Shown here: positions 10,360 to 45,685 of the stretch, in pieces
Layout: every line of letters starts with the position of its first letter
Position numbering within the stretch: the stretch's first letter is position 1
DNA from: an uncultured Fibrobacter sp.
GTDB taxonomy: Bacteria; Fibrobacterota; Fibrobacteria; Fibrobacterales; Fibrobacteraceae
NCBI RefSeq assembly: GCF_947166265.1
Contig: NZ_CAMVDO010000023.1
Span: 1 to 46,187, forward strand
Length of the DNA stretch: 46,187 bases
Direction: 5' to 3'
Position numbers and translations under genes: made by a program
Notes under the pieces: model-generated
What the model was told of the DNA's origin: nothing
Databases searched by the model: none
Seen by the model: the letters and a program-made list of their open reading frames with translations, nothing else

Positions 10360-10432
10360 GCGCGAGCTGAAATTAACTCAGTTCTTATTATTGGCTCGCG
10401 CTCTCGCAACCGCCCTCGGTTAATACCGAGGG
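10360..10432 (+). terminator. two hairpins after rubrerythrin, possible terminators
   Basis: Directly after the rbr stop, an 8-bp arm pair GCGCGAGC (10360-10367) and GCTCGCGC (10394-10401) encloses an AT-rich loop. It is followed by a perfect 8-bp hairpin CCCTCGGT/ACCGAGGG with loop TAAT (10413-10432). The T-run after the second is short, so these could be weak terminators or a structured 3' UTR. Confidence 0.45.
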
Positions 10433-20476: not shown

Positions 20477-21493
20477 TTAGCGTTCCATGAGTTCCTGGAT
20501 TCGGGTGAGGTCGTCCATGGAATAATAGTTAATGACGATGGTACCCTTGGTCTCAGTCGAGGCGCTCGGGTTCAGTTGCACCTTGGTACCGAAGTATGTT
20601 TCGAGACGGGACTCGAACTGCTTCATGTCGGCGCTGAGTTCCGGCTTCGGCTTGGCTTCGACTTCGGGCTTGTGGACTTCCGGCTGTTCCTCTGAAGACT
20701 GCTCCGGTTCACCCTCTCTCGTCTCTCGTTTCTCGTCTTTCGTCTGGCTAATATCTTCTCCCCTAGCAATCGCCTCGATCTGGCGGACGTTCAGTCCTTC
20801 CTCAATGACGCGCTTCGCGACTTCTTCAGGATTTTCGATCTTGTCGCTACAGAGGGCACGTGCCGCACCGCCCGAAATCTTTCCTTCCTCTATCCACAAA
20901 AGTACGACTTCCGGGAGCTTGAGAAGACGGAGACTGTTGGTAATCGCGGAACGGGACTTGCTCACAATTTTGGAGAGGTCGTCGTGCGTATAATTATGAT
21001 TGTTGATAAGTTGTTGATAAGAACGGGCGACTTCGACCGGGTTCAGGTCTACGCGCTGGATGTTTTCGATAAGCGCCCATTCGGCCATTGCCTTGTCGCC
21101 CACATTTTCGTAAACCTGGGCCTTGATGGTCGGGAGGCCTGCGAGCTTGGTGGCGCGGGTACGGCGTTCACCGCTGATCAGCTGGTAACGGTCGCCGACC
21201 TTGCGGACGACGATTGCCTGGATAAGACCGTGCTGCTCGATGGATTCGGCGAGTTCCACCAGTTCGTCGTCGCTGAAAACCTTGCGCGGCTGGAACGGGT
21301 TCGGGTCGATGAGTTCGACGTTGATTTCAACGATTTTTTCGGAGTTGTCAACAGCGGCATTACCGGTCGATTCATCGGCACCATTCTGTGAATTGTTTTC
21401 ACTGGACTGTTGAATGTCGGACGCTGCCGGAGCGGAGTGATCCTTGAGAATGTCGGCGAGGCTGCGACCCAGTGCGAAAGATTTTTTACCCAT
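20477..21493 (-). CDS. parB: chromosome-partitioning protein ParB
   Basis: 338-residue CTP-dependent clamp that loads at parS and spreads along DNA. Visible parts: variable N-terminus, ParB/Srx domain from about 52 (VELIDPNPFQPRKVF) with the CTPase motif GERRTRA and the conserved box AEWALIENIQRVDLNPVEVA, a helix-turn-helix (THDDLSKIVSKSRSAITNSL) that reads parS, and a C-terminal dimerisation domain. The N-terminal end would carry the ParA-stimulating peptide. A low-complexity Lys/Glu-rich linker (about 240-275), encoded by CGTCT-repeat DNA at 20711-20748, joins the last two domains. It lies 3 nt after parA. Six candidate parS sites lie just beyond rsmG. Confidence 0.97.
   Translation of the reverse strand: MGKKSFALGRSLADILKDHSAPAASDIQQSSENNSQNGADESTGNAAVDNSEKIVEINVELIDPNPFQPRKVFSDDELVELAESIEQHGLIQAIVVRKVGDRYQLISGERRTRATKLAGLPTIKAQVYENVGDKAMAEWALIENIQRVDLNPVEVARSYQQLINNHNYTHDDLSKIVSKSRSAITNSLRLLKLPEVVLLWIEEGKISGGAARALCSDKIENPEEVAKRVIEEGLNVRQIEAIARGEDISQTKDEKRETREGEPEQSSEEQPEVHKPEVEAKPKPELSADMKQFESRLETYFGTKVQLNPSASTETKGTIVINYYSMDDLTRIQELMER
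20711..20748. repeat. CTCGTCT low-complexity repeat inside parB
   Basis: Degenerate repeats of CTCTCGTCT-type units occupy 38 nt of the parB linker. The same motif family builds the larger palindromic insertion in rsmG at 22684-22776. It reads through in frame. Confidence 0.6.
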
Positions 21494-21496
21494 TGA

Positions 21497-22282
21497 CTAC
21501 TTTCCCTTGTTCAAGATTTCTTCGGCGAGTTTCATGTAGGCCTGTGCGCCGCTGCTCTGCACATCGTAAAGAATGGCGGGCTTGCCGTGGCTCGGTGCTT
21601 CGGAGAGTTTCACGTTTCTCGGAATCATCGCCTGGAACACGGTGTCGCTCAGGTTCTCGCGGACTTCCTCGGCAACCTGCTTGCAGAGGCTCAGGCGGGA
21701 ATCGTACATAGTGAGCAGCGCCCCTTCGATTTTCAAGTTAGCGTTCAGGTTCTTCTGGACTTCGCGGATGGTCTTGAAAAGTTCGGTCATACCCTGCAGG
21801 GCGTAGTATTCGCACTGCACCGGGATCAGCACGCTGGTGGCGGCGGTCAGCACGTTCAGCGTCAAAAGGTTCAGGCTCGGAGGAGCGTCGATGATGATAA
21901 ATTCGAACGCCTGCTTCAACACGTTCATCACGCGCTCGAGTCGACGTTCGCGGCTCATGGCGTTCACCAGTTCGATTTCCATGACGGCGAGGTCCGGTCC
22001 GGAAGTGATGACCTTGAGGTAGTCGAGGCTCGTGTCGAGAATAGCTTCCTTGATGTTGTCGTAGGTGACATTGTCCGGATTGTCGGCCATGTTCAGGATT
22101 TCGTGGATATCCACATCCTGAAGTTCATTGTAGCCGAGACCCTGCGACGCGTTCCCCTGCGGGTCCATGTCGATCAGGAGCGTCTTCTTTTCCAATGCGG
22201 CAAAACTGGCGGCCAGGTTGACGGCAGTCGTGGTCTTGCCCACGCCACCTTTCTGGTTGCAGACTGCTATCACTTTACTCAT
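21497..22282 (-). CDS. parA: chromosome-partitioning ATPase ParA
   Basis: 261-residue Walker-type ATPase of the chromosomal ParA/Soj family that drives parS-ParB segregation through ATP-dependent nonspecific DNA binding. It has the deviant Walker A KGGVGKTTT (residues 11-19, with the signature Lys), LIDMDPQGNASQGLG, and IIDAPPSLNLLT for Walker B. The lack of an N-terminal HTH places it with chromosomal rather than plasmid P1-type ParA. Its ATG overlaps the rsmG stop (ATGA), and parB follows after 3 nt. The order rsmG-parA-parB is typical of origin-proximal regions in many bacteria. Confidence 0.97.
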   Translation of the reverse strand: MSKVIAVCNQKGGVGKTTTAVNLAASFAALEKKTLLIDMDPQGNASQGLGYNELQDVDIHEILNMADNPDNVTYDNIKEAILDTSLDYLKVITSGPDLAVMEIELVNAMSRERRLERVMNVLKQAFEFIIIDAPPSLNLLTLNVLTAATSVLIPVQCEYYALQGMTELFKTIREVQKNLNANLKIEGALLTMYDSRLSLCKQVAEEVRENLSDTVFQAMIPRNVKLSEAPSHGKPAILYDVQSSGAQAYMKLAEEILNKGK

Positions 22283-22992
22283 TCATTACCTCGAGTGACT
22301 AAGGCGTAAACTTGTTCTTCCTGCGGGAGTGCATATTTATATATGTGTACTTCCGGATTGCTTTCCAGGTGAACAATATTGTTGAAACTTTTCAGCGTGA
22401 GGAACTTTCCACCGCGCTTGAGTCCCGGCTGGGCACGTTCCCAGTCGTTTTCGAAAGTCGACAGGGCGCGGCAGCTCACAAAATCCAGATAGGCAAGTCC
22501 CGAAGTTTCGAAGCGCTTGCCTACGACGGTCAGGTTATCCAGGTGCAGTTTTTCCTTGGCGTACTTCATGAACTCCACGCGCATGTGACGGGGTTCGACT
22601 GCAAAGAATTCCACCTGGGGCATTACGATGGCGAGCGGGAAAATCGGACAACCTGCACCGGCTCCCATATCAGCCCATTTGATAGACGAGAGAGAAGAGA
22701 CGAGAGACGAGAGAGATTCTTTGTTATCAATTCTCTCGTCTTTAGTCTGTAGCCCCGCAGGGGCGTTCTCTCGTCTAATATATATATAGGGAACCAATGA
22801 ATCGGCGATGTGCCTGCTCAAAAACTTTTCGGAATCCTTCGCCGAAATCAGGTTGCCAAACTGCTTGGTCTCTACGACCAAGTCCGCAAAATCATAAAGC
22901 TTGCCGAGAGTATCGTCGGACAGCTGCACACCATGTTCTGTCAAGAACTGGTTCAAAAGATTCTGCTGATTTTTGTTTTCTCTATAACTCAA
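22279..22992 (-). CDS. rsmG: 16S rRNA (guanine527-N7)-methyltransferase RsmG with in-frame insertion
   Basis: SAM-dependent enzyme that methylates G527 of 16S rRNA; 237 residues. The likely start is a TTG at 22992 with a short AGG site upstream; the open frame continues to 23175 but that part is built from intergenic repeat sequence. Family blocks are present: KFLSRHIADSLVPYI, the SAM site WADMGAGAGCPIFPLAI (usual DxGSGaGxPGxxLAI) and VSCRALSTFE. Between DSLVPYI and the SAM site lies an extra stretch of roughly 30 residues, encoded by palindromic CTCGTCT-type DNA at 22684-22776; E. coli RsmG has only a short loop there. It starts the parAB operon. Confidence 0.9.
   Translation of the reverse strand: MSYRENKNQQNLLNQFLTEHGVQLSDDTLGKLYDFADLVVETKQFGNLISAKDSEKFLSRHIADSLVPYIYIRRENAPAGLQTKDERIDNKESLSSLVSSLSSIKWADMGAGAGCPIFPLAIVMPQVEFFAVEPRHMRVEFMKYAKEKLHLDNLTVVGKRFETSGLAYLDFVSCRALSTFENDWERAQPGLKRGGKFLTLKSFNNIVHLESNPEVHIYKYALPQEEQVYALVTRGNE
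22684..22776. repeat. palindromic CTCGTCT element inserted in rsmG
   Basis: Built from AGACGAGAGA units (22684-22716) and their inverse TTCTCTCGTCT (22731-22741 and 22766-22776), so that long stems can form. The small hairpin GCCCC-GCA-GGGGC lies at 22752-22764. It is read in frame within rsmG. Layout resembles the protein-coding palindromic elements known from Rickettsia, although the sequence is different. Confidence 0.65.
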
Positions 22993-23101
22993 TGAAAACC
23001 TAAAAATTGTTTGGACTTTGGCAAAGCCAAAGGCCGACACCCTGCGGTTTCCAAATAAAAATATGCGAACATATTTTTGCTTGGAAACCTTGGTTGTGTT
23101 T

Positions 23102-23193
23102 GGACACTTCGTGTCCGACCTTAATCGGCTCGGAAATAAAAACAAATAAATTTGTTTTTGCTTCACTCGCCTCATAAGGTTTCACGTGGAACG
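23102..23193. repeat. hairpin-parS block, copy A
   Basis: GGACAC-TTC-GTGTCC, then CCTTAATCGGCTCGGAAATA, a variable hairpin (AAAAACAAAT/ATTTGTTTTT), GCTTCACTCGCCTCATAAG and a parS. The same frame recurs at 24525-24667 with a different hairpin and extra DNA in the middle. Confidence 0.75.
23178..23193. promoter_or_regulatory. parS site 1
   Basis: GGTTTCACGTGGAACG: the 14-nt core GTTTCACGTGGAAC differs from the consensus GTTTCACGTGAAAC by one base. It lies 186 nt upstream of the rsmG start. Confidence 0.88.
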
Positions 23194-23249
23194 TTAGCGA
23201 GGTGAGTGCAGCGAAAAATACATTAGGTATTTTTCATTGCCGAACCGAA

Positions 23250-23274
23250 GCAAGTTGGCTCCGAAGGAGCAAAC
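23250..23274. repeat. 25-nt hairpin repeat, copy 1
   Basis: A 25-nt sequence containing the hairpin GCTCC-GAA-GGAGC. An exact copy lies at 26354-26378. Both are in parS-bearing intergenic DNA. Confidence 0.8.
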
Positions 23275-23334
23275 ATTGATTGCGTAGCAATCTAACGTGC
23301 CTAACATAATTTAGTATTATGATTTGTGAATACA

Positions 23335-23357
23335 AGAAAAAAGGGCGGGCGCCCTTT
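23335..23357 (-). terminator. terminator of the secreted-protein gene at 23424
   Basis: Stem AAAGGGC/GCCCTTT (23340-23346 and 23351-23357), followed on the minus strand by six T and then C. It lies about 65 nt after the stop codon of the gene at 23424-24194. Confidence 0.8.
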
Positions 23358-23423
23358 CACTTTTTAAAAATATCCGTGGATAAGTTTTTGATAAATGTGG
23401 ATTTTGTGTGAATAGGAAATAGT

Positions 23424-24194
23424 TTAGAATGTTCCACGTGGAACACTTATGATATATTTTCTGTTAGCAGGGCGACCGAGGAGGTCAAAATGTTTGGACT
23501 TTTCGGGGATAAATGCCGGCTTGTTTTTGCGGAGGATCGAGGTGGTGGAATTGGGGTTGACCAAAATATAGAACATCTTTTCCTCGCTATTTTTGTTCGA
23601 CACAACGAATCCGTTTTCGGTATTTGTTATAATTTGCTGGGTTGTGCTGGAGAGGGAATCGTAGGAGGTTATGATGCAGGTGTTTTCGTCATTGGGGTCT
23701 GGGGTGATGAAGGAGCTTTGTTCCTTTTGGAGTGTGTTTTCGGGTAGGTCCCATACTTCCCTATAAAGGGTGTCGTTTCGCAAGTATGAAATTCTCATGT
23801 AACTGATCTTCGGTTCATCGGAGATCGCGGGACTATAGACATAAGCTAGGGAGGAATCCTTTCCTATGATGTAGGTTTCTTCTTGGATGATTTGGTCGTT
23901 GTAATAGGTAGTTGTCTTGATGTTTTTTTCAGATTTTTCCTGAACCATCTTTTGATGAATTGTTGAACAATTGTCCTCTACGCATCGGACGATGCTGTCC
24001 AGGTTGTTTCCTGTATAGTGGTATTTCATGGAGGCGTAGTAAGTAAAATCGTGAGCGTAGTTTTCGATGTAGGCACTGTCTACCAAATATGTATTTGCGA
24101 TGCTGGATGTAAAAGATGTCTGGAACATGTCGCGGCAGTTGAAGGCGAAGGCATTCAATGCAATAAAGAAGAGAATTAGGATGAGCTTTTTCAT
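23424..24194 (-). CDS. secreted protein of unknown function, with a parS site in its last codons
   Basis: 256-residue protein with a signal peptide (MKKLILILFFIALNAFA) and no membrane anchor, so it is probably periplasmic or secreted. No family was recognised. It shares features with the next gene upstream (24677-25342): a leading Asn/Asp-Cys segment, YHYTGNNLDSI (YHWTGNHLDSM in the neighbour), paired Cys and a DPN(D/N)E.(T/S)(C/K) stretch, so the two are divergent paralogues. The last codons, encoding Ser-Val-Pro-Arg-Gly-Thr, are parS site 2 (23430-23445). Its C-terminal part HFDLLGRPANRKYIISVPRG resembles the final motif of a shortened sorting tail. AT-rich compared with neighbours. Confidence 0.8.
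   Translation of the reverse strand: MKKLILILFFIALNAFAFNCRDMFQTSFTSSIANTYLVDSAYIENYAHDFTYYASMKYHYTGNNLDSIVRCVEDNCSTIHQKMVQEKSEKNIKTTTYYNDQIIQEETYIIGKDSSLAYVYSPAISDEPKISYMRISYLRNDTLYREVWDLPENTLQKEQSSFITPDPNDENTCIITSYDSLSSTTQQIITNTENGFVVSNKNSEEKMFYILVNPNSTTSILRKNKPAFIPEKSKHFDLLGRPANRKYIISVPRGTF
23430..23445. promoter_or_regulatory. parS site 2, inside a coding sequence
   Basis: TGTTCCACGTGGAACA, a perfect 16-nt palindrome with one change per half from TGTTTCACGTGAAACA. It overlaps the last six sense codons (two partial) of the secreted-protein gene at 23424-24194. Confidence 0.88.
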
Positions 24195-24232
24195 GTTAAT
24201 AAATATAGTTTATTTTAAATGAAAAAAAGAAT

Positions 24233-24365
24233 GCAGGGAGGGAACCCAGCTCGGAGTTGACGCCTATGGCGTCCGTGGCTTCATTCGGTCATATTGACAA
24301 ATAAATTTGTCAATGCGACACTCATTTTGCGCACTTTTGCGAAGGCCGCACGGTTCCCTCCCTGC
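24233..24365. repeat. 14-bp inverted repeat with 105-nt hairpin-bearing centre
   Basis: GCAGGGAGGGAACC at 24233-24246 is the exact reverse complement of GGTTCCCTCCCTGC at 24352-24365. The enclosed DNA carries two further perfect hairpins. On the minus strand the right-hand arm is followed by ATTCTTTTTTTC, so the whole could act as a long-stem terminator for the gene at 24677. Confidence 0.75.
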
Positions 24366-24524
24366 ACCCTCCCTTTCCTGGCGCAAGCGCCAACCTTACG
24401 GCTCAGCCATGACCATACAAGTATGGCCGCGGCACTCGCCTTGATCGGTTGTGGCCGACGCAGCCAGGCTCGTCCAGACGATGAACATTTTTTTTGATAT
24501 TGATTGTATTTCACGCAAATGTTG

Positions 24525-24667
24525 GGACACTTCGTGTCCTACCTTAATCGGCTCGGAAATATATACGAAACTCGAAACTTTAGTTTCGTAGTTGAGTTAT
24601 CCTCTGCGGGGAGAAACAAGCTTGCTTGTTTCTGCTTCACTCGCCTCATAAGGTTTCACGTGGAACA
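24525..24667. repeat. hairpin-parS block, copy B
   Basis: Starts GGACAC-TTC-GTGTCC and CCTTAATCGGCTCGGAAATA as in copy A, then different hairpins (CGAAACT/AGTTTCG at 24573-24588; GAAACAAGC/GCTTGTTTC at 24613-24632), then the same TGCTTCACTCGCCTCATAAG and parS. Confidence 0.75.
24652..24667. promoter_or_regulatory. parS site 3
   Basis: GGTTTCACGTGGAACA; core identical to parS 1, preceded by the same 20-nt frame sequence. It lies 9 nt beyond the stop codon of the gene at 24677-25342. Confidence 0.88.
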
Positions 24668-24676
24668 ATTAGAAAG

Positions 24677-25342
24677 TTATTTCTTATAATATATAGTGGT
24701 ATATTCATTGCCGCCTGTGCAGGGGCCGGGGGCTTTGATGTATCTATTATAGTCGAACTTGATTGATTTCTGGATGAGGTTACTCCCCTTCATTTCGTAT
24801 TCATAGGTGTCGATGATGAGGTTCTTTTCGCTTTTCCGGGTACATTTGCTTTCGTTATTCGGGTCGCGATAGATGATCCAGTTCCTGGGAATCCAGCTGT
24901 TGACTTCGTGGATGGTATCGTTTTTGATATAGAATATCTGGTGCAGTTCCTTATCCTTATTGATATAGACGGAATCCTTTGTGCGGTAGACCGTAAAGTG
25001 CCATCTGTCCTTCGTGGATTTCCAGTCGTATTTCTTGACCTTGCCTACTTTGGTAGAGTCAATTTCCCAGTCGGGAATGTAGGTGGATCTTTCTTCGATA
25101 TTGTGTGCAGGGCAAGATTGGTATAGGTTCATGCTGTCGAGATGATTGCCTGTCCAATGGTATTTGATAGTATAGACTAGCCCGTTTTGTTCCTGATAGA
25201 GACTATCCGGCGACATTTCGCCGGGCATGACGAGTGCATTATTCTCGAAGTTCGTTGCGAAATAATCGAACAGGGGTCGGATACAATCAACCGAATGGGC
25301 ATTCAAAAATGCCGCTACCAATATTATAAATGTTCTCCTCAT
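24677..25342 (-). CDS. secreted protein of unknown function, paralogue of 23424-24194
   Basis: 221-residue protein with a short signal peptide (MRRTFIILVAAFLNAHS). It is recognisably related to the gene at 23424-24194 through YHWTGNHLDSM, an FYIKNDT segment (YLRNDT in the neighbour) and a similar spacing of aromatic residues. No known family recognised. The product is likely periplasmic or secreted and of beta-rich fold. The gene is flanked by hairpin-rich, parS-bearing DNA on both sides. AT-rich composition and lack of a strong ribosome site set it apart from the housekeeping genes around it. Confidence 0.78.
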   Translation of the reverse strand: MRRTFIILVAAFLNAHSVDCIRPLFDYFATNFENNALVMPGEMSPDSLYQEQNGLVYTIKYHWTGNHLDSMNLYQSCPAHNIEERSTYIPDWEIDSTKVGKVKKYDWKSTKDRWHFTVYRTKDSVYINKDKELHQIFYIKNDTIHEVNSWIPRNWIIYRDPNNESKCTRKSEKNLIIDTYEYEMKGSNLIQKSIKFDYNRYIKAPGPCTGGNEYTTIYYKK

Positions 25343-25379
25343 GTTATTTAATATAGATTATTTATAGTAGAGAAGGAGA

Positions 25380-25400
25380 TGCCCGCTCAAGGCGGGCATG
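25380..25400. repeat. REP-like palindrome
   Basis: ATGCCCGC (25380-25387) and GCGGGCAT (25393-25400) form a perfect 8-bp hairpin flanked by GGAG and GACAATC. Similar GTCATGCCCGCC-type palindromes are scattered between genes in many unrelated bacteria. Confidence 0.65.
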
Positions 25401-25469
25401 ACAATCTGGAAAAGTTGTATGTTTGGCCTTTGGCTTTGCCAAAGGCCGACATGCTCATACTCGGTCATA

Positions 25470-25600
25470 AAATATGCAAGCATATTTTGCGACGCTCGTA
25501 ATCGCATGTTGGGCCTCTGGTTTCACCATAGGCCTACACCCTGCGGTTCCCAAATAAAAATGTGCAAGCACATTTTGTGACGCTCGTAATCGCATGTTTG
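25470..25600. repeat. tandem hairpin-frame repeat with compensatory change
   Basis: Two units 88 nt apart. Each has a 9-bp hairpin followed by TG[CT]GACGCTCGTAATCGCATG. The hairpin arms differ at one base pair (A-T in the first, G-C in the second), changed on both arms so that pairing is kept. Confidence 0.8.
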
Positions 25601-25672
25601 GACACTTCGTGTCCGACACCCTGGGGCTCAGCAATGTCCATACAAGTATGGACGCTGCATTCGCCCTGCGGA

Positions 25673-25688
25673 TGTTTCACGTGGAACA
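25673..25688. promoter_or_regulatory. parS site 4
   Basis: TGTTTCACGTGGAACA, one base from the 16-nt consensus TGTTTCACGTGAAACA. Confidence 0.93.
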
Positions 25689-25819
25689 TTGAACTTCATT
25701 TTGACAATCTTTGTCAGGGCAATGAAGCTATATTAAAAGTGAACGTCTTTTATGGGAACTTCTATGTGTTGCTCTCTTGTTGCTGCAGTCTTTTTGGTAA
25801 TGCTATTTATAATGTGGTA

Positions 25820-26200
25820 CTAGATAGTAATCTCTACCCTATTGCCTTCGGGGTCGAGAACGACACTTTCATAATACCCGTCGCCGGTGGTTTGTGGCTC
25901 TCCCACTACCTGGATACCGTCATTGGACATTTGTTGGGTGAGGAGGTCCACCTCTTCTTTGGAACCCACAGAAAAAGATAGGTGTGCATACCCGAGATGT
26001 TCTGAAGAGGATAATGGTTCTATGTCAGGGCGGTGCATTATTTCTAGCCGGGCGCCACTTTCGAAGGTAACAAACCTGCTGGTGAATTGTTTTGCCGGAT
26101 TATGGTAAACTGGGTGGACTACCCCATCGAAATACTTTCGGTAGAATTCGCAGACCTTGTCTATGTCTTTTACCCAGATGGCGATATGTTCTATTTTCAT
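25820..26200 (-). CDS. VOC-superfamily protein (glyoxalase/dioxygenase fold)
   Basis: 126-residue single-domain protein with two beta-alpha-beta-beta-beta modules. The N-terminal KIEHIAIWVKDIDKVCEFY has the usual His metal ligand. Glu in ARLEIMHR, His in HLGYAHLSFSV and Glu in GNRVEITI complete a four-ligand set as in glyoxalase I and related metal-dependent VOC enzymes. The closing VLDPEGNRVE is a strong family mark. Substrate is not predictable; lactoylglutathione lyase-like or dioxygenase-like activity are both possible. It has no operon partner, lies between two parS-bearing gaps, and lacks a clear ribosome site. Confidence 0.87.
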   Translation of the reverse strand: MKIEHIAIWVKDIDKVCEFYRKYFDGVVHPVYHNPAKQFTSRFVTFESGARLEIMHRPDIEPLSSSEHLGYAHLSFSVGSKEEVDLLTQQMSNDGIQVVGEPQTTGDGYYESVVLDPEGNRVEITI

Positions 26201-26283
26201 AAGGAACCCACTATAATATATATAAAAAGTGTTTATTGAAACCGAGTTTTCAACATCTATTCACATAGTAGTTGATAATTATA

Positions 26284-26299
26284 TGTTTCACGTGGAACG
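26284..26299. promoter_or_regulatory. parS site 5
   Basis: TGTTTCACGTGGAACG; core GTTTCACGTGGAAC as in sites 1, 3 and 4. Confidence 0.88.
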
Positions 26300-26353
26300 T
26301 TTGCAAACCGAGGAAGCGGCGATAAACTTGTTTATCGACATTTCCGAGGTGTA

Positions 26354-26378
26354 GCAAGTTGGCTCCGAAGGAGCAAAC
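26354..26378. repeat. 25-nt hairpin repeat, copy 2
   Basis: Exact copy of 23250-23274, containing GCTCC-GAA-GGAGC. The two copies are 3.1 kb apart in the same orientation. Confidence 0.8.
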
Positions 26379-26526
26379 CTGCGATTGTGAGTGTCGCGAC
26401 GAAATGCTAGCATTTCGGCATGACCGAGCATGAGCATGTCGGACTATGACATATTCATAGTCCCAACAATACATTATTCAATTTCACATTTCGGATTATT
26501 TATCTATATTCTTCCTGGAGGTTCTT

Positions 26527-27033
26527 ATGATCGAGATTGAAATTATCCAGGGTGATATTACCAAGCTGAAGGTCGACGCGATTGTGAATGCGGCGAATTG
26601 TTCGCTTCTGGGGGGTGGCGGTGTCGATGGGGCGATTCACCGGGCCGCCGGTCCTGAACTTTTGCGGGCTTGCATTCCATTGAACGGTTGCGAAACCGGC
26701 AAGGCAAAAATCACTCCGGGGTTTAGGCTTCCGGCGAAGTTTGTTATCCATACTCCGGGGCCTGTCTATGAGGATGGCCTGCATGGTGAACCCGAACTTC
26801 TGAAGTCCTGCTATAAAAACTGTCTTGACCTGGCCGAAGAAAATGGATGCGAGTCGGTCGCCTTCCCCGCTATTTCGACGGGCGTTTACGGATACCCCTG
26901 GGAGGCTGCCACCGAGATTGCCGTGAAAACGGTTTGTGAATATCCAAATAAGACTGTGAAAAAGGTCATCTTCTGTTGTTTCTCTGCCCAAATGGAAGGA
27001 ATATATAGGCAGTTCGTTACAGCCTCCCGTTAG
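26527..27033 (+). CDS. macro-domain ADP-ribose-processing protein (YmdB/MacroD-like)
   Basis: 168-residue single macro domain predicted to hydrolyse O-acetyl-ADP-ribose or remove ADP-ribose from proteins. The ADP-ribose pocket is clear: GDITKLKVDAIVNAANCSLLGGGGVDGAIHRAAG at the N-terminal end (catalytic-loop Asn and GGGGVDGAIH), and AFPAISTGVYGYP for the phosphate-binding loop. These are the marks of the MacroD-type hydrolase class, which has the GGGGVDGAIH loop. A GGAGG site lies 5 nt before the ATG. A TATATT element 17 nt upstream would give a very short leader. A second, larger macro-domain protein is encoded at 34666-35721. Confidence 0.93.
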   Translation: MIEIEIIQGDITKLKVDAIVNAANCSLLGGGGVDGAIHRAAGPELLRACIPLNGCETGKAKITPGFRLPAKFVIHTPGPVYEDGLHGEPELLKSCYKNCLDLAEENGCESVAFPAISTGVYGYPWEAATEIAVKTVCEYPNKTVKKVIFCCFSAQMEGIYRQFVTASR

Positions 27034-38392: not shown

Positions 38393-41300
38393 CTACATCC
38401 ATTTATTTCGAATATCAGAGAACTCATTATTATCATTAGACTCGTTCTCCCATCTTAAAACTTCCTTTTCAGCAGAACAGTCAGCATCCTTTTTCATAAT
38501 ATATGCTAAACGCATAGATCTTTGACGAATGATTAATTTTTCGTCAAAAGATAGTGCAGAATTTTCATTTCCATAATCAGTAATTATTGCTAAATGTTCC
38601 AAAATTTTCATTAATAATATTTTAAATTCTTTTGCCATTGCGTTATTTTGTTCAATAAACTTAATTAGAAAATCGATGTTATGATAAATCAAGACGTCAT
38701 CATCATAAAGAATTGAAAATAACAAAGCCTTAAAAAGAAATTTTACTTCATCTCCACTTTGAAGGGTACAAAATATTTCATCAAGACAATATAAAGCGTC
38801 TATTCGTTTGTTTGAGTCCTTGTTGGCAATATTTATTTCCAATTCTGTTCGCATTTTATTTCTATTTTGAGAATCACTTATTATTAGTCGTACATAGAAA
38901 CAAGATAAACCAGACTGTTCTATAATTTTTAATAAATCGTTCAATTTTGTAGATGCATAGTAGTTTTTATTCACTTTTTTTAGTAATAGTCCTATAGTTC
39001 TTTGCATCAGACAATAACAAGGAATAAACTCTTCTCGCATTTCCTTATTATTCAAAACATCATTGTTACTATTCCCAAAAGTTACAATTTTATCAACAAG
39101 GGGTTCCTGATCCACCTCATCTAAATAATTGTTGTCAATCAAATAGTTGATAATCATGAAAAAATTATTCATTTCAGAAACATATTGTGTCGAAATTCCC
39201 TCTTGAGTTATAAACAACTTGCACTGAAAAGATTTTACATAATCCCTTAAAACATTTAAAGGATTATAATTAGGAGGGTATGGAAGGTTTACAAAGCATG
39301 TTTTTGAGTAATAAGGCATAAATGGCAAACCATCATCACCTATTTTATCCCAAAGAAGGTTCGCAAACCTCTGTTGTTCACCGTTATCTAGGAAATTCAA
39401 TTCATAAAGCCTTGCTAGTGTTATAAAGCCCCATTTTCTTATGGTTATACAAGATGAGGACATTGCCTTATAATAAGGGGTCAGAAGTTTTTTGTCAAAG
39501 TTAAATGATTCACTAAACACATTTCTAGAAGCTCTTAAATATTCAAAAGGAGACAACAATATTCCCTCTTCTAAAGGCGATATATTCTTGGGAATAGGAA
39601 GTTTTAGCATATCCGAAAAAAATAATTCTATTTCGGTAACCAATAATGACTTGGCAAATCGCTTTATCAGGGTCTCAATACCCAAATACCTATCTCGTGA
39701 TTGAGATAAAAGAATTGAATTGAGCAATTTGAGAATTTTGAATTTTATTTCCGTATTACATTTTGGCACCAGCCGCGAAATAATTTCTGGAATTATTTTG
39801 GCCAAAACCTGTGCGAAATTATTTTCATCGGTTTCTTCAAGTGAAATTTCTTTTTCATTCTCACTCAAAGTAGAAATCAAACTTTCGCAAAATTGATTTA
39901 CAGAATCTGTTGAAAGATTGTTTATTGCTTTTCTTGTAAACAACGTATCTGCAGCTTTTTGATCGGCAATCCGACAACATACCGATATAGCCCACATTAA
40001 ATTGTAATCAGAAATTCTAGCAATTGAAGATTTGGCTTCGGTTTCAGAGAAGTTATATATTACACGTTTATTATGAATACAAAATGGAATTCCTACATTT
40101 TCGCAATATAATAAAAAAGCAAAAGCATTTTCTTGTTCGCGAAAAGAACGTCCTAAATGACGAGTAATTGTTGTTTCACCAACATCATATTTATTGTGAA
40201 TATAAATTTCTTTTTCATGTTTATACTCCGGTGACAACAAGACCTTAAAATGATTGTATTCATGAATGGGATCGCATAAGTATTTTTTTAATGTGGAAAG
40301 GCGGTCTAAATAATCTTTTTTCTGAGTTCTAGAATCATTGACATTACAACAGGCAAACAAGAGGCTTTGATATAAGTCCAAAATATATGATTCCTGAGAT
40401 AATAGGGAACAATTTGTAGATGATTCTGTCGATTTTTCTTGTTCCCTTATAGAAAGCAAAGATTCTTTAACTATTTCTATTGCTTTTTGCAAATTCCCTA
40501 TTTCCGCTAGAATACCAGCTTTTTTTGCATTTTCAAATGGAGTGCTACTCGGGAAAAGCCATTGTTGCACTATTTGTTTTAATTTGGGATAATCTAAATA
40601 GAATAAAGCGAATAAAGCATTTTCGTAATCCAAATCGCCTTTTAACTTTGATGGAATATTGCTTAGTGAGGATAACTTTAAATACAAATTATTCCATTCA
40701 CTAGTTTTTCCATTTTGTCTGTAACATTTAAGCAAACAAACGCCTATTACTATTTTATCTTCGCAATCATAGCTATTTCCTAGAATTTTTTCGGCAAAAG
40801 ATGCCGTTTGCATATCCATTGGGTGTAAACATCTGTCCAACCGCCAACACAATTCAAAAATAAATTTAAATTGGACATTCTTGTCGATGAAATCATCTTT
40901 AGCACTTAACGCAAAAATCCAATTTTGAGTCTTTAACCAAAAAGAATCCCTTTTTTCCTCAGGAAGAATAACCCAACCAGGATATGTTTTTCTTTCATTT
41001 TCCCATATCGAAATAGTATCAATAATGCTTTTTTCTATAGCATTTGTTTCGGGGTAAAAAGCATTTGCTTTATTATATGGCCATAAAAGAATGTTGTTTT
41101 TTCGGGATTTTTCCGAGAGGTATGATATAAAAATATTTAATGCGTCATAATGATTATCAGCCAAATTCACTAGAACAATATTTCTTTTGTTAAGTAGTTT
41201 TTTTTGTGAACTAGATAAATTGAATGACCCAATCAAATATATTTTAGAAGAGCCTTTTTCGAGGTTGTCTCTTAACCATCCAAGCCATTGCAAAAAATTC

Positions 41301-41929
41301 GGATCATCGCCCGAAAAACCGATTAAACACAATGTATTTTCTAGCAGTGATTGTTGCACTGTGTTGACAAGAGGAGCGTTTTTTTGGGGGTAAATTCTGT
41401 AATCTTCTTCTGTGATGGTAAATGGTCGAAAAGAAACAAAACTTCCATGTAATTTTATTATTCTTGGTTTTGTGGCGTAAACTAAATCATCTTTTGAATA
41501 AACAGTAGTATATTTACGATCAAAGACATTCTTGGCAGCACGTTCTAACAAAGTATCATAATTGGTTGTAAAAACATCAACCCAAGGTAATCCCAATAAT
41601 TTTTTATGCAAATCTGAGGGCTCATATTCCACATCAGGAATATTCTTTTGCAACATATCATCTAATGTTGGTCGTCCAAAAGCAGCATCAACTTCTTCTG
41701 CTAATTTTAAAACATTTAAATAATTTTTTTGGGGTGTTTGGGCGTTTTTCCCATAAAGTTTTTCGTAAAATAAATCCCCTAATTCATTCCAATCAGGAAA
41801 TTTTTTACAATGATTTCCACTAGAAATTGCATTTTTGCTAAACCCGGCTCCTACCATTATCGCCGCGTGATTTGTAAAAAGACGATTGGCAATTTCATCT
41901 AAAAATATTTTGTTATCTGCGGAAATCAT
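38393..41929 (-). CDS. SIR2-domain protein with long helical C-terminus, defence-associated sirtuin-like
   Basis: 1178-residue protein. The N-terminal SIR2_2-type domain (about 1-270) carries the NAD-binding and catalytic marks: IMVGAGFSKNA (27-34), FTTNYD with Asn 123, KLHGSF with His 161, and LIGFSGDDPNF (203-212). These are the residues whose equivalents are needed for NAD depletion in DSR1/DSR2 and Thoeris ThsA. The remaining 900 residues are mainly helical and lack any recognised domain, as in DSR proteins, where that part senses phage tail proteins. The start is the ATG at 41929, with GAGGAGG upstream and 2 nt after the hsdS stop; a TTG two codons earlier sits too near that site. AT-rich, unlike hsdM. 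An abortive-infection effector is likely. Confidence 0.85.
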   Translation of the reverse strand: MISADNKIFLDEIANRLFTNHAAIMVGAGFSKNAISSGNHCKKFPDWNELGDLFYEKLYGKNAQTPQKNYLNVLKLAEEVDAAFGRPTLDDMLQKNIPDVEYEPSDLHKKLLGLPWVDVFTTNYDTLLERAAKNVFDRKYTTVYSKDDLVYATKPRIIKLHGSFVSFRPFTITEEDYRIYPQKNAPLVNTVQQSLLENTLCLIGFSGDDPNFLQWLGWLRDNLEKGSSKIYLIGSFNLSSSQKKLLNKRNIVLVNLADNHYDALNIFISYLSEKSRKNNILLWPYNKANAFYPETNAIEKSIIDTISIWENERKTYPGWVILPEEKRDSFWLKTQNWIFALSAKDDFIDKNVQFKFIFELCWRLDRCLHPMDMQTASFAEKILGNSYDCEDKIVIGVCLLKCYRQNGKTSEWNNLYLKLSSLSNIPSKLKGDLDYENALFALFYLDYPKLKQIVQQWLFPSSTPFENAKKAGILAEIGNLQKAIEIVKESLLSIREQEKSTESSTNCSLLSQESYILDLYQSLLFACCNVNDSRTQKKDYLDRLSTLKKYLCDPIHEYNHFKVLLSPEYKHEKEIYIHNKYDVGETTITRHLGRSFREQENAFAFLLYCENVGIPFCIHNKRVIYNFSETEAKSSIARISDYNLMWAISVCCRIADQKAADTLFTRKAINNLSTDSVNQFCESLISTLSENEKEISLEETDENNFAQVLAKIIPEIISRLVPKCNTEIKFKILKLLNSILLSQSRDRYLGIETLIKRFAKSLLVTEIELFFSDMLKLPIPKNISPLEEGILLSPFEYLRASRNVFSESFNFDKKLLTPYYKAMSSSCITIRKWGFITLARLYELNFLDNGEQQRFANLLWDKIGDDGLPFMPYYSKTCFVNLPYPPNYNPLNVLRDYVKSFQCKLFITQEGISTQYVSEMNNFFMIINYLIDNNYLDEVDQEPLVDKIVTFGNSNNDVLNNKEMREEFIPCYCLMQRTIGLLLKKVNKNYYASTKLNDLLKIIEQSGLSCFYVRLIISDSQNRNKMRTELEINIANKDSNKRIDALYCLDEIFCTLQSGDEVKFLFKALLFSILYDDDVLIYHNIDFLIKFIEQNNAMAKEFKILLMKILEHLAIITDYGNENSALSFDEKLIIRQRSMRLAYIMKKDADCSAEKEVLRWENESNDNNEFSDIRNKWM

Positions 41930-41931
41930 CT

Positions 41932-43293
41932 TCAATCCTCCTCAAAGGCGTCTTTTAGGATGCTTTGCATGAGTTGTTTGGTGGTGGTTTCGCGGGTGGC
42001 GATTTGGGTTTCAAGTTGGGTGATGGTTTGTATGTGTTGCTCTACTCGGGCGACGATTTCTTTTTGTTCTGCTAGTGGAGGGAGTGGTATTTTTAGAGTT
42101 TCGAGGATTCCCAAATTAATGTTCTTTTGAGCTGTTGCCGGAGCGTATTTTTCCAGAATAACTTTAATAGAATCGATATAATATCTTACGAAATTTGAGA
42201 AATCTCCATCAATATAAGGCGTAAAGCCAACAACGCTATCAGGGAAGCATGCGTCGTATGTTAAAAATCCCGTTTCAGCAATATTTGCAGCAATGGTTAT
42301 GCACAAGGTTCCTGCTTTCCACATTTTACTTTGAGCCAAGCCAAAATCATTATAAAATTTAGATGCCGGTTGTATTTCGTAACCATAATATTTTGATTGC
42401 GACACATCCCCTGTTTGAACAAATGGGTATTTACCATTGGAAAATAGACGAATATCATTTCTTGGACGATGTTTCGATTTACCTCTTTCTAAATCGCCTA
42501 ACTCAGACAAATTGACAAAAAGCCAACTTTGAGGAATGTCTAATACAAAATCACCATCTATTTTTTCCTGAATATTATTTGACGATCTAATATTTGATTT
42601 AGATAATTTCTTTTCGGACTGAATTTTATCAAATAACGCTTGAGCATCGTAGTCGGGGTTGCCTTTTTGGACGGGGTGTTGTTTACGCCAGTCTGCGGTG
42701 AGTTTTCCTTCTATGGCTTCTTGGAGGATGTTCTGGCGGAGTTGTTTTGCGTAGGATTTTTGTTTTTCAATTTCAGATGACAGCAGTTCCGTCATTTCTA
42801 ACTGAGATGAAATTTCTTTGACAATCTTTTTCTGAGTCTCTAAATTAGGGATTGATATTTCAAGAGGTAGTAAATCTCTTTCATGAATAGATTTTTGCGC
42901 CGATCCTGTCGGAGTTAGTGTAGAAACTAGATTGGCAAAAATGGGAGACCGAAGAAGATTTTTCAAATATTGCGTGTCAATCACGGTATCATCAACAGAA
43001 AACATTGGCATATTTTCTGTCGCGATACAACTATCAACTTCTTCAGGGGCAAGCCCTATTGAACCTTCATGCAAACCTTGACGAGTGAAAATAACTGTAT
43101 TTGGATATTTTTTCAAATCAATCAAGAATTGCCGTTTTCGACCGATTTCTTTCCCAATTTTTGTACAGCGATATTTAACACCATCTTTTGATGAAATGGT
43201 TACTTGACGGTATTGTTGCGCATCATCTACATAAATAGTAATTCGATACTGTTTAAGAAACTCGCCAATTTTTACTTTCTTCCATTCGCTCAT
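41932..43293 (-). CDS. hsdS: type I restriction-modification specificity subunit HsdS
   Basis: 453-residue DNA-recognition subunit. It has the duplicated plan of HsdS: TRD1 (about 1-150), a central conserved helical spacer (about 160-245, LRQNILQEAIEGKLTADWR), TRD2 (about 246-400) and a distal conserved helix pair (PPLAEQKEIVARVEQHI). Each TRD contacts one half of a split target. The TRD-coding DNA is AT-rich while the DNA for the spacer and the C-terminal repeat resembles hsdM, a sign of TRD exchange. The ATG comes 1 nt after the cyclase-like gene stop; SIR2 follows 2 nt after its own stop. Confidence 0.95.
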   Translation of the reverse strand: MSEWKKVKIGEFLKQYRITIYVDDAQQYRQVTISSKDGVKYRCTKIGKEIGRKRQFLIDLKKYPNTVIFTRQGLHEGSIGLAPEEVDSCIATENMPMFSVDDTVIDTQYLKNLLRSPIFANLVSTLTPTGSAQKSIHERDLLPLEISIPNLETQKKIVKEISSQLEMTELLSSEIEKQKSYAKQLRQNILQEAIEGKLTADWRKQHPVQKGNPDYDAQALFDKIQSEKKLSKSNIRSSNNIQEKIDGDFVLDIPQSWLFVNLSELGDLERGKSKHRPRNDIRLFSNGKYPFVQTGDVSQSKYYGYEIQPASKFYNDFGLAQSKMWKAGTLCITIAANIAETGFLTYDACFPDSVVGFTPYIDGDFSNFVRYYIDSIKVILEKYAPATAQKNINLGILETLKIPLPPLAEQKEIVARVEQHIQTITQLETQIATRETTTKQLMQSILKDAFEED

Positions 43294-43294
43294 A

Positions 43295-44239
43295 TTAACC
43301 TACACTCACATCAAATGCCAAAGTTTGTTCATTAAATTCCGATTTTAAATTAATCTTTAAATCGGGCATCTTATATAATTCTTCGCATATTTTATTATGG
43401 AATGAAACTAGCCATAGATACTTTTTCAGAATTTTTAATCTTATTGCTTCTTCAGCTTCATTATTTAATGACTGACTAAATTCACTCACCTTCTCCTCTA
43501 CAAAATTTTTGTGTTTTTTCAAAACCACGAAAATTTCTTTAAGACATTCGGGATTGTATATCGGTTTGCGTTGGCGACCATCTCTAACATTTTTTTCGAA
43601 TTCTTCAAAACTTTCTATGCTTTCAGGTTGCAAAGTGTTTTTGGGAAACCATATCCACGGGTTTAACGCGACGATATAATTCAAAAAACTCTTGTTATCG
43701 GCATTTTTTATGAGTAAATCTCGGCAAGATGCATCAATAATATATTTCTGAAGATCATTTTGTATCTCTGAATTCAAGTCATTTAAAATACAATCCGCAA
43801 CAATTATCCTTGGATAAACAGTGGTGCTTTCAAGTTCCACAGCATCAATCAATGCTTTCCCGCCCACAAAATCATTTGTCAAGTATAAAGGCCCTTTGGT
43901 TATTCCTCCACGAACAATCAAATGATAGCCCTCAAAAAAAATACGTTGTATGGTTGCAATCAAGCGCAAAAAAGAAACTAAAAAAATTGCAGAAATTGAA
44001 CTTGTTGTTTTTTTATAACAAATAAGAATATTGTCTGAAAAAATCTTGTATTCAATATCAGTTTTTTTATCAATTGATTCGTTGGACGGAGCATTAATAA
44101 TTGATACAATCTGTTTCATCAAATCAACGGAAGATTCAATTGATTCAATCAATTTTGCAGAAATATCCTCCGATTTCTTGAAGGCTTCCTTATACCCCAA
44201 AACATCAAAGTAGGCTACATAATATTCAGAGAATTCCAT
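43295..44239 (-). CDS. nucleotidyl-cyclase-like protein (tentative) embedded in the type I RM operon
   Basis: 314-residue cytoplasmic protein. The N-terminal 150 residues have the order and spacing of a class III nucleotidyl cyclase core: YVAYFDVLGYKEAF with Asp 12 in the first strand, YKIFSDNILICY with Asp 69 at the position of the second metal ligand, LIVRGGITKGPLYL (110-120) and FVGGKALIDAVELE (125-137), then YPRIIVADC. The C-terminal half is mainly helical and unrecognised. Similar short proteins occur as hypothetical proteins elsewhere; whether they make a cyclic nucleotide is not established. It sits 15 nt after hsdM and 1 nt before hsdS, so it is certainly cotranscribed. AGAGGG precedes the ATG. 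The gene is certain, the family call is not. Confidence 0.6.
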   Translation of the reverse strand: MEFSEYYVAYFDVLGYKEAFKKSEDISAKLIESIESSVDLMKQIVSIINAPSNESIDKKTDIEYKIFSDNILICYKKTTSSISAIFLVSFLRLIATIQRIFFEGYHLIVRGGITKGPLYLTNDFVGGKALIDAVELESTTVYPRIIVADCILNDLNSEIQNDLQKYIIDASCRDLLIKNADNKSFLNYIVALNPWIWFPKNTLQPESIESFEEFEKNVRDGRQRKPIYNPECLKEIFVVLKKHKNFVEEKVSEFSQSLNNEAEEAIRLKILKKYLWLVSFHNKICEELYKMPDLKINLKSEFNEQTLAFDVSVG

Positions 44240-44254
44240 CCAACCCTCTATTCC

Positions 44255-45685
44255 TTACTTCAAGCTCTTTTTCAAATCGGCAATAAGTTCTTCACTTGCC
44301 TTGAAGGATTCGTGGAGTCTCTGTATGAGTTCGGCGGTGGAATATCCAATTTCTTCTTCAGGAATAGTTGGGTTCTTGATGTCAAGATTGAAGCCCCTCT
44401 CTTCAATTTCCTTTATCGAGACTTTCCAGGCAACATCGGATTTCTTGCGCTTATTCCACCACTTTTTGAAGGACTCAAATTCCGCTTTCCGGATAGGCTT
44501 GGTCTTGGAATACGCCTTCATTCCTGCAGGTACCTTGTGCTCGTAATACCAAACATCCTTGGTCTTTTCACCCTTAGTAAAGAAGAGTATGTTTGTCGCT
44601 ATACTAGGCACATAAGGTGTAAATACAGAAGTTGGAAGTCTCACAATAGTGTGCACATTGCATTGCGTCAAGAGTTCCTTGCGGATTCGCTCCTTCAAGC
44701 CGCCACCTGTAAGCGAGCCATCAGGCAACACAACTGCTGCGCGACCACCGTCCTTAAGATAACGCATAATCAAGAGCAAGAATAGGTCTGCACTTTCCTT
44801 GGTACGGAAAGCGACGGGATAGTTCGTCTCTACGCCATCGCTCACAGAAGCACCGAAAGGGGGATTCGCCAAGATGACATCCACTTGGTCTTTGCGACCG
44901 ATGCTCGTATATTCGCGGTTCAAGCTGTCGGTGTAAAGGATATTCGGCACTTCGATGTCGTGCAAAATCAGGTTCGTTACGCAGAGCATGAACGGGAGTG
45001 GCTTGAATTCTTGCCCGCGAATGGTCGCGTTGAGTGTTTTCAAGTCTTCTACGGAATGAACATCTTGCTTGCGGATGTTCTCGATAGCACAGGTCAGGAA
45101 TCCGCCTGTACCGCAAGCGGGGTCAAGCACGCGTTCGCCAAGTCGCGGGTTCACGATTTCCGTCATGATTTCGGTGATGGCACGCGGGGTGTAGAATTCA
45201 CCATAGTTGCCCGCACTCTGCAGGTCTCGCAACAAAGTTTCGTAGATGTCGCCAAACAGATGGCGGTCTTCGGATACGTTGAAGTCAATCTCGTTCAGCT
45301 TGTTCACCACCTGACGGATGATGGTGCCGTTTTTCATGTAGTTGTTGATGCCGTCGAAAATGTCGCGAATAAGAATAGCGCGCTTGTTGCCGGTAGAAAC
45401 GTCTATCTTTTTCAGGCCAGGAATCAACTTGTTGTCAACGAATTCCTGCAAGGCGTCGCCCGTCATGCCTTCGCTATCGGCAGCCCAGTTGCGCCACTGC
45501 AGTTTTTCAGGGATTACCGACTTGTAGTCATCATCCAGAAGTTCCATTTCGGAATCCTTGTCGTCGATAATCTTGAGCGTAATCATCCAGCCCAGCTGTT
45601 CAATGCGCTGTGCATCGCCAGAAACACCCTGGTCTTTTCTCATGATGTTTTGCAGGGTCTTGATAATTCCACCGATGTCGGCCAT
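44255..45685 (-). CDS. hsdM: type I restriction-modification methyltransferase HsdM
   Basis: 476-residue N6-adenine DNA methyltransferase. It has the HsdM N-terminal helical domain (about 1-130), YGEFYTPR (161-168), the SAM-binding motif DPACGTGG (188-195) and the catalytic motif NPPF (274-277; N6-adenine type). The C-terminal region includes the family helical bundle. It pairs with HsdS to modify and, with HsdR, to cut unmodified DNA. Its ATG overlaps the hsdR stop by one base (TAATG), so the unusual order hsdR-hsdM-(cyclase-like)-hsdS holds in one operon. Codon and base composition are like housekeeping genes here, unlike the two accessory genes. Confidence 0.97.
   Translation of the reverse strand: MADIGGIIKTLQNIMRKDQGVSGDAQRIEQLGWMITLKIIDDKDSEMELLDDDYKSVIPEKLQWRNWAADSEGMTGDALQEFVDNKLIPGLKKIDVSTGNKRAILIRDIFDGINNYMKNGTIIRQVVNKLNEIDFNVSEDRHLFGDIYETLLRDLQSAGNYGEFYTPRAITEIMTEIVNPRLGERVLDPACGTGGFLTCAIENIRKQDVHSVEDLKTLNATIRGQEFKPLPFMLCVTNLILHDIEVPNILYTDSLNREYTSIGRKDQVDVILANPPFGASVSDGVETNYPVAFRTKESADLFLLLIMRYLKDGGRAAVVLPDGSLTGGGLKERIRKELLTQCNVHTIVRLPTSVFTPYVPSIATNILFFTKGEKTKDVWYYEHKVPAGMKAYSKTKPIRKAEFESFKKWWNKRKKSDVAWKVSIKEIEERGFNLDIKNPTIPEEEIGYSTAELIQRLHESFKASEELIADLKKSLK

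Follow-up and report, generated by a model that had tools for sequence, protein, structure and literature searches.

The question raised by this locus is how two neighbouring hairpins come to differ by a base pair that is exchanged on both arms, with the pairing kept. The hairpins are located in the window, i.e. the whole stretch of 46,187 nucleotides that was analysed, from a contig of an uncultured Fibrobacter sp.; the first occupies positions 25469-25488 (AAAATATGC-AA-GCATATTTT) and the second positions 25557-25576 (AAAATGTGC-AA-GCACATTTT), each of them with a perfect 9-bp stem and each shifted left by one base relative to the coordinates given in the initial annotation. As had been claimed there, the two stems are the same except for a single pair, A-T in one and G-C in the other, with both arms altered. 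The hairpins had also been described as followed by an almost identical frame; the 3' frame (GNGACGCTCGTAATCGCATGTT) is indeed nearly identical, but the 5' frames differ (CTCGGTCAT versus CCCAAATA). The second example that had been offered, a pair of companion hairpins on the minus strand (class A, repeat family D7), is only half sound: between the hairpin at 25420-25451 (GGCCTTTGGC-TTT-GCCAAAGGCC) and the hairpin at 25507-25538 (GGCCTCTGGT-TTC-ACCATAGGCC), the exchange of C-G for T-A is real, but the neighbouring T-A has become a C.T mismatch, so that one pair is kept and one is broken.

Comparison with related sequences indicates that the two hairpins are the distal stems, named P3, of a short structured repeat of the Fibrobacteraceae, whose architecture is read on the strand opposite to the frame that was first described. 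The core of the repeat consists, in this order, of helix P1, a GA/GA loop, one pair, a bulge, helix P2, a GC/AT loop and P3; core and companion hairpin together form a full unit of about 90 bp, and tandem units are often spaced by about 90-95 bp. P1 occurs as GGC/GCC, GCC/GGC, GGT/ACC and other types; inside it, GA is located opposite GA (tandem G.A), followed by a single covarying pair, either G-C or A-T, that is accompanied by a bulge of one base. P2 has 3 bp and occurs in 10 types, and it is separated from P3 by GC opposite AT. P3 is variable in sequence, usually with 7 or 9 paired positions and a four-base loop such as CTTG; the letters that are conserved in the internal loops read GAG(N)..GC..AT..CGA. 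The flanks beyond P1 often pair too (P0), with helices of at least 6 bp in 45 of 135 elements versus about 9 of 134 permuted pairs, and the companion hairpin, which is placed after the core, often has a GNA triloop.

The first hairpin belongs to a core at 25457-25501 (minus strand), which is matched at 54.1 bits (E 1.5e-14) by R1, the covariance model built from covarying copies, and whose stem and frame are the same in another member of the genus (L026). Of the second hairpin, also on the minus strand, R1 recognises the terminal stem only (model positions 15-34), at 18.1 bits versus the 54.1 of the first element. This second hairpin consists of the left half of a subtype from several other Fibrobacter species (GGTTCCCAAATAAAAATGTGCAAGCACATTTTTGCTTGG), joined to a copy of the right half of the first element; in intact relatives, the left part GGTTCCCAAATAAAAATGTGC is followed by its proper right half, GCTTGG, a combination that several other species keep next to parS, while here GCTTGG has been swapped for a copy of the right frame of the first element. 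P2 of the second hairpin is broken, because one flank carries the P2 strand TTG, the partner of which is CAA, and the other flank carries GTC. The chimeric frame of the second hairpin rules out that the two hairpins are one sequence altered in place; what the cited pair compares is two different subtypes, of which one is contained in a chimera. The pair is therefore not evidence for an in-place double change, and the second example contains a broken pair; the initial suggestion of selection, or of a copying mechanism that regenerates palindromes, draws its strength from the covariation across the genus, which is strong.

In the window, the elements match R1 with E-values of about 1e-10 to 1e-18 and are located in arrays at 23.0-26.5 kb, which adjoin rsmG, parA and parB (parB and parA at 20477-22282, minus strand; Pfam ParB_N, HTH_ParB, AAA_31) and are interspersed with parS sites. 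The site at 25673-25688 (TGTTTCACGTGGAACA) is accompanied by further sites at 23178, 23430, 24652, 26284 and 27791; the search of the window gave 9 strand matches versus 0.02 expected. Minus-strand cores are located at 23126-23172 (P2 GAA/TTC, abutting parS 23178; 65.2 bits), 24281-24327 (57.8 bits), 24399-24441 (P2 GCC/GGC; 42.3 bits) and 25624-25666 (stem GTCCATAC/GTATGGAC, adjoining parS 25673; 39.9 bits), the last of which has a counterpart with stem GCCCATAC/GTATGGGC in other species (L025, L027, L030, L031). Plus-strand cores are located at 23200-23247 (P2 GCA/TGC, on the opposite side of parS 23178; 45 bits), 26306-26351 (abutting parS 26284; 46.9 bits) and 26385-26431 (61.7 bits). To these are added, on the minus strand, a partial element of the CAA/TTG subtype (23053-23082; 29 bits over model positions 10-39), a degenerate element beside parS 24652 (24604-24646; 20.4 bits) and a companion hairpin, GGACAC-GAA-GTGTCC, at 25600-25614, which recurs at 23102-23116 and 24525-24539.

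All eight of the well-scoring copies in the window lie within 3.5 kb, among parS sites, and elements abut parS in other members of the genus too. A role of the parS-side hairpins in the machinery of the centromere or origin could therefore be supposed, e.g. in limiting ParB sliding, with the dispersed copies as by-products. We consider this very improbable, given that the majority of the genome's copies, about 72 altogether versus 8 in the window, are dispersed and that the parS-side elements resemble the units found at gene ends, with the direct repeat AAACATGCGAT. Elsewhere in the window, the A+T-rich segment 27620-27960, with parS and DnaA-box-like words near parAB, is a possible replication origin; another A+T-rich stretch, 38393-45685 (about 33% G+C in its first part), carries a Dsr2-type SIR2 defence protein (PADLOC Dsr2, 1031 bits), the gene of which adjoins type I restriction specificity and methyltransferase genes.

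The repeat was found in 61 of the 61 genus genomes searched, with 4 to more than 100 copies in each and tens in most, the counts near 100 being lower bounds, i.e. at least that many; named Fibrobacter records carry the same element. In the other genera of the family, 7 of 9 genomes have it; in the other families of the phylum, 0 of 46 do. On a contig labelled Clostridiales bacterium Firm_16 (L096), an element pairs perfectly and a second Fibrobacter-type repeat is present too; the contig is probably misassigned (misbinning). Literature searches returned no description of these repeats in Fibrobacter, and the family is apparently undescribed.

The frame of the repeat is not a chance product, as is shown by the reversed control of the frame pattern, which had 0 matches in 61 genomes, by the chance frame matches in unrelated bacteria, where 30% of the stem positions pair versus 92% in Fibrobacter, and by the pairing of shuffled stems. 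In 37 aligned cores, whose members were picked partly for pairing, 92.9% of the cells are paired, versus 67.6% when shuffled and 36-43% when the partner is slid, and two-sided changes occur at 15 of 16 pairs (153 two-sided cells). Because of this partial choice, two blind checks have been run. A frame-only search gave 102 distinct cores, of which the 66 of the commonest length are 91% paired versus 46% shuffled; a scan that is blind to the stem, using the loops, P1 and P2 only, gave 85 distinct cores, in which 678 of 724 P3 pairs (94%) are Watson-Crick and no stem is less than 50% paired. The two-sided changes are above those of the shuffled controls, the behaviour that marks a structured element, and comparison of the copies, those studied closely being mostly high-scoring, shows the fold of the core hairpin (B) to be under selection, with conserved GA/GA and GC/AT internal loops and covarying helices.

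The initial annotation had named one result that would tell against it, namely that changes which break the pairing prove as common as those which keep it; the opposite has been found. Among near-identical stems, at most two arm positions apart, there are 97 kept two-sided differences versus 43 one-sided ones, together with 19 at two different pairs and 5 of other kinds, and in the stem-blind set, arranged as a minimum spanning tree, 26 steps are two-sided with the pairing kept and 13 are one-sided; these are counts of variants, not of independent events, and the variant pairs are phylogenetically non-independent.

It could still be argued that the pairing is merely inherited from a limited set of perfect palindromic subtypes, which spread and recombine without any active upkeep, and that all compensation is a comparison between subtypes. 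The chimeric second hairpin speaks for this explanation, as do the permuted cassette orders and subtype b (AAAAATGAGC), which is identical across many species. It is nevertheless quite improbable: at the 3' end of a ferredoxin gene, elements at equivalent sites differ in P3 (AGAAAAATGC, AGAGAAATGC, AGCAAAATGC, AGCCAAATGC) and also in P2 (GTC/GAC versus GAT/ATC) with the pairing kept, and about 85 distinct stems, with less than 7% of their cells unpaired, each need an origin.

The position of the repeat relative to genes is equally distinctive. Of 135 elements, 28 start between -2 and +6 nt from a stop codon, in the sense direction, while the other three gene-end configurations have 0 elements within 15 nt; the gene calls for this count were made with a home-made codon-scored model, several of the 28 copies are mutually orthologous, and the sample is biased towards high scores. 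At the ends of two genes that were followed from species to species, some orthologues have the element behind them and some do not, and the order of subtypes is permuted. An occupied site (G080) and an empty one (G036), with flanks that match on both sides, differ by 80 bp and a second TGGGARTAA, which includes the stop codon; direct repeats of at least 7 nt flank 34% of the elements versus 8% of permuted pairs. Occupied and empty sites and flanking direct repeats are thus both found, as in a target-duplicating mobile element, and the repeat is apparently non-autonomous. It inserts preferentially directly after the stop codon, in the sense direction, and the insertion duplicates a target of about 9 bp with the stop codon inside it, as is seen at the one occupied/empty pair and supported by the direct repeats elsewhere. 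The unit also expands to tandem arrays, both at the ends of genes and, close to the partition genes, around parS. At the end of the 'IEWE' gene, loci L290-L363 carry the subtypes in the orders a-b-c, c-b, b-c, d-b, b-d and a-b-d, in a cassette-like manner.

The same position suggests that the element may work as an RNA of the 3' untranslated region, e.g. as an exonuclease barrier or as an attenuator between the stop codon and the terminator, with its pairing kept by ordinary RNA selection and no copying. The sense orientation at stop codons (28 versus 0), the location of some arrays between a stop codon and an apparent T-tract terminator, the conserved GA/GA loops and the better folding of the sense strand (100 of 131 elements) all agree with such an RNA. 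We regard this explanation as unlikely; in some species the orthologous genes lack the element, and the arrays near parS also occur between divergent genes and in both orientations.

The composition of the stems bears on the same alternative. Stems that are maintained as RNA tolerate G.U pairs. In the stem-blind set, G.U accounts for 5 of 724 P3 pairs and A.C for 6 of 724, so that G.U is not in excess; in the tRNA stems predicted in the fetched loci, which are mostly from Fibrobacter, G.U accounts for 34 of 507 pairs, and the repeat therefore has ten times less of it. In the frame-only set, G.U is mildly in excess on the folding strand, with 18 pairs versus 7 of A.C, as selection on an RNA would give, which counts for the untranslated-region RNA and against copying. 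Double transversions, which have no wobble intermediate, make up 12 of the 26 two-sided steps on the minimum spanning tree of the stem-blind set, and three stems have been found with identical arms and both a loop and its reverse complement, the same being seen at orthologous sites; the RNA explanation is weakened by both. Template switching is reported to yield compensatory changes in a single event, with inversion of the loop (PMC8794818), as well as homogenisation of the arms and inversion of the spacer (PMC8604942). Scarce G.U pairs, frequent double transversions and inverted loops together favour a copying component, in which the arms would stay Watson-Crick palindromes largely because one arm is copied from the other in replication, by template switches that may alter both arms in a single event and sometimes invert the loop.

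Selection is needed too, since the internal loops are conserved, although template switching alone should wipe them out; we infer that both are at work, with selection acting on the fold and copying supplying most of the matched changes. The copying component has points against it: no event has been dated on a tree, the species-level genomes being too distant for the dating of single mutations, and the excess of two-sided changes can also be explained by selection with unseen intermediates. Moreover, at two orthologous sites, a small sample, one-sided changes (G.U, A.C and T.T, one each) are about as many as the clear two-sided ones.

Taken as a whole, the explanation that we favour, with slightly more than even confidence, is that of a mobile structured repeat that inserts at stop codons, with a fold that is selected and arms that are kept matched largely by template switching. 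On its best-folding strand, the unit would consist of T, which is the local target, followed by the core hairpin (B), by T', which in many cases is the complement of T, by the companion hairpin (A) and by a second T; T' and T fail to match at some loci, such as that of the 'IEWE' gene. Self-consistent subtypes would spread and recombine, which is why neighbouring copies resemble compensatory variants of each other. A bolder version, which we regard as rather unlikely, is that the hairpin homes to stop codons without a known transposase and that the target is copied both ways (T, B, T', A, T) by repeated switching of strands, in which case insertion, growth of the arrays and upkeep of the palindromes would be one DNA-copying process.

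With palindromes that probably number thousands, all in one conserved frame and spread over about 80 species, the repeat is a natural system in which stepwise selection and one-step template switching can be directly counted as sources of paired arm changes. It is also an apparently undescribed, family-wide repeat, the insertion of which at the stop codon would be harmless to the gene and reshape the 3' untranslated region, and which, in an important rumen bacterium that degrades fibre, is found all around the sites of chromosome partition.

Lastly, we compare the repeat with known systems. At the gathering threshold, Rfam finds only a tRNA in the window, and a permissive scan of 22900-26600 gave sub-threshold noise and no family; integron attC sites and CRISPR, weighed because of the cassette-like arrays, were provisionally set aside. 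Miniature inverted-repeat transposable elements (MITEs) are non-autonomous, duplicate their target and are bounded by the terminal inverted repeats of a parent transposon; the Fibrobacter repeat shares the first two properties, but no parent transposon has been found for it. Mitochondrial mobile hairpin elements (double-hairpin elements; RHE, PMC2800124) are also short interspersed hairpin repeats, for which mobility is suspected but no enzyme is known; they are, however, organellar and structurally divergent, and the likeness noted here is one of form. Template-switch (quasi-palindrome) mutation (PMC8794818, PMC8604942) resembles what is seen here in its single-event compensatory changes, homogenised arms and inverted loops about four bases long; it is, however, a mutational process and not a family of elements, and it does not explain the conserved unpaired loops or the insertion at stop codons.

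The closest likeness is to the REP elements, GTAG- and CGTC-tagged (PMC3733652, PMC2817692), which are short, high-copy, extragenic palindromes. A REP is a simple stem, mostly of 6-9 bp, with a terminal tetranucleotide tag, whereas the Fibrobacter repeat has a longer fold of several helices, conserved GA/GA and GC/AT loops, a companion hairpin and little G.T pairing, carries no GTAG or CGTC tag, and inserts in the sense direction at stop codons with duplication of the target. REP elements that are mobilised by RAYT have a terminal GTAG/GGAG tag beside a single palindrome; GTAG was not seen in the flanks examined, and the Y1 tyrosine transposase (PF01797) occurs in only 27 of 80 genus genomes, being absent from G061, G068, G110, G074 and G019, each with at least 75 copies. 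The missing tag, and the missing transposase in many high-copy genomes, rule out membership of the GTAG type. CGTC families are known without a dedicated transposase (PMC3733652, PMC2817692), but the repeat does not fit their description, in which a CGTC/TGTC tag accompanies a stem of 8-9 bp that begins with AT and a loop of 4-5. A separate repeat beside it, the GTC-tagged palindrome ATGCCCGC..GCGGGCAT at 25379-25399, does have these features and resembles a CGTC/TGTC-type REP (PMC3733652); its family, GGAG[AT..AT]GACA (TGTC-tagged on the other strand), is also present on contig C3 of G014 and has many alternative paired stems. A third type of palindrome, GAGCAACAAA[stem with GTATTAAC centre]GGTTGCGAGAG, with constant flanks and a variable paired stem, occurs at L006 1360-1400, in L096 and at 10413-10432 of the window. 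Compensatory stem variants in bacterial repeats are not new in themselves, since alternative complementary stem residues are known for REP sub-families (PMC3733652); what is new here is the repeat family, its conserved internal loops, its insertion at stop codons and the scale of its covariation.
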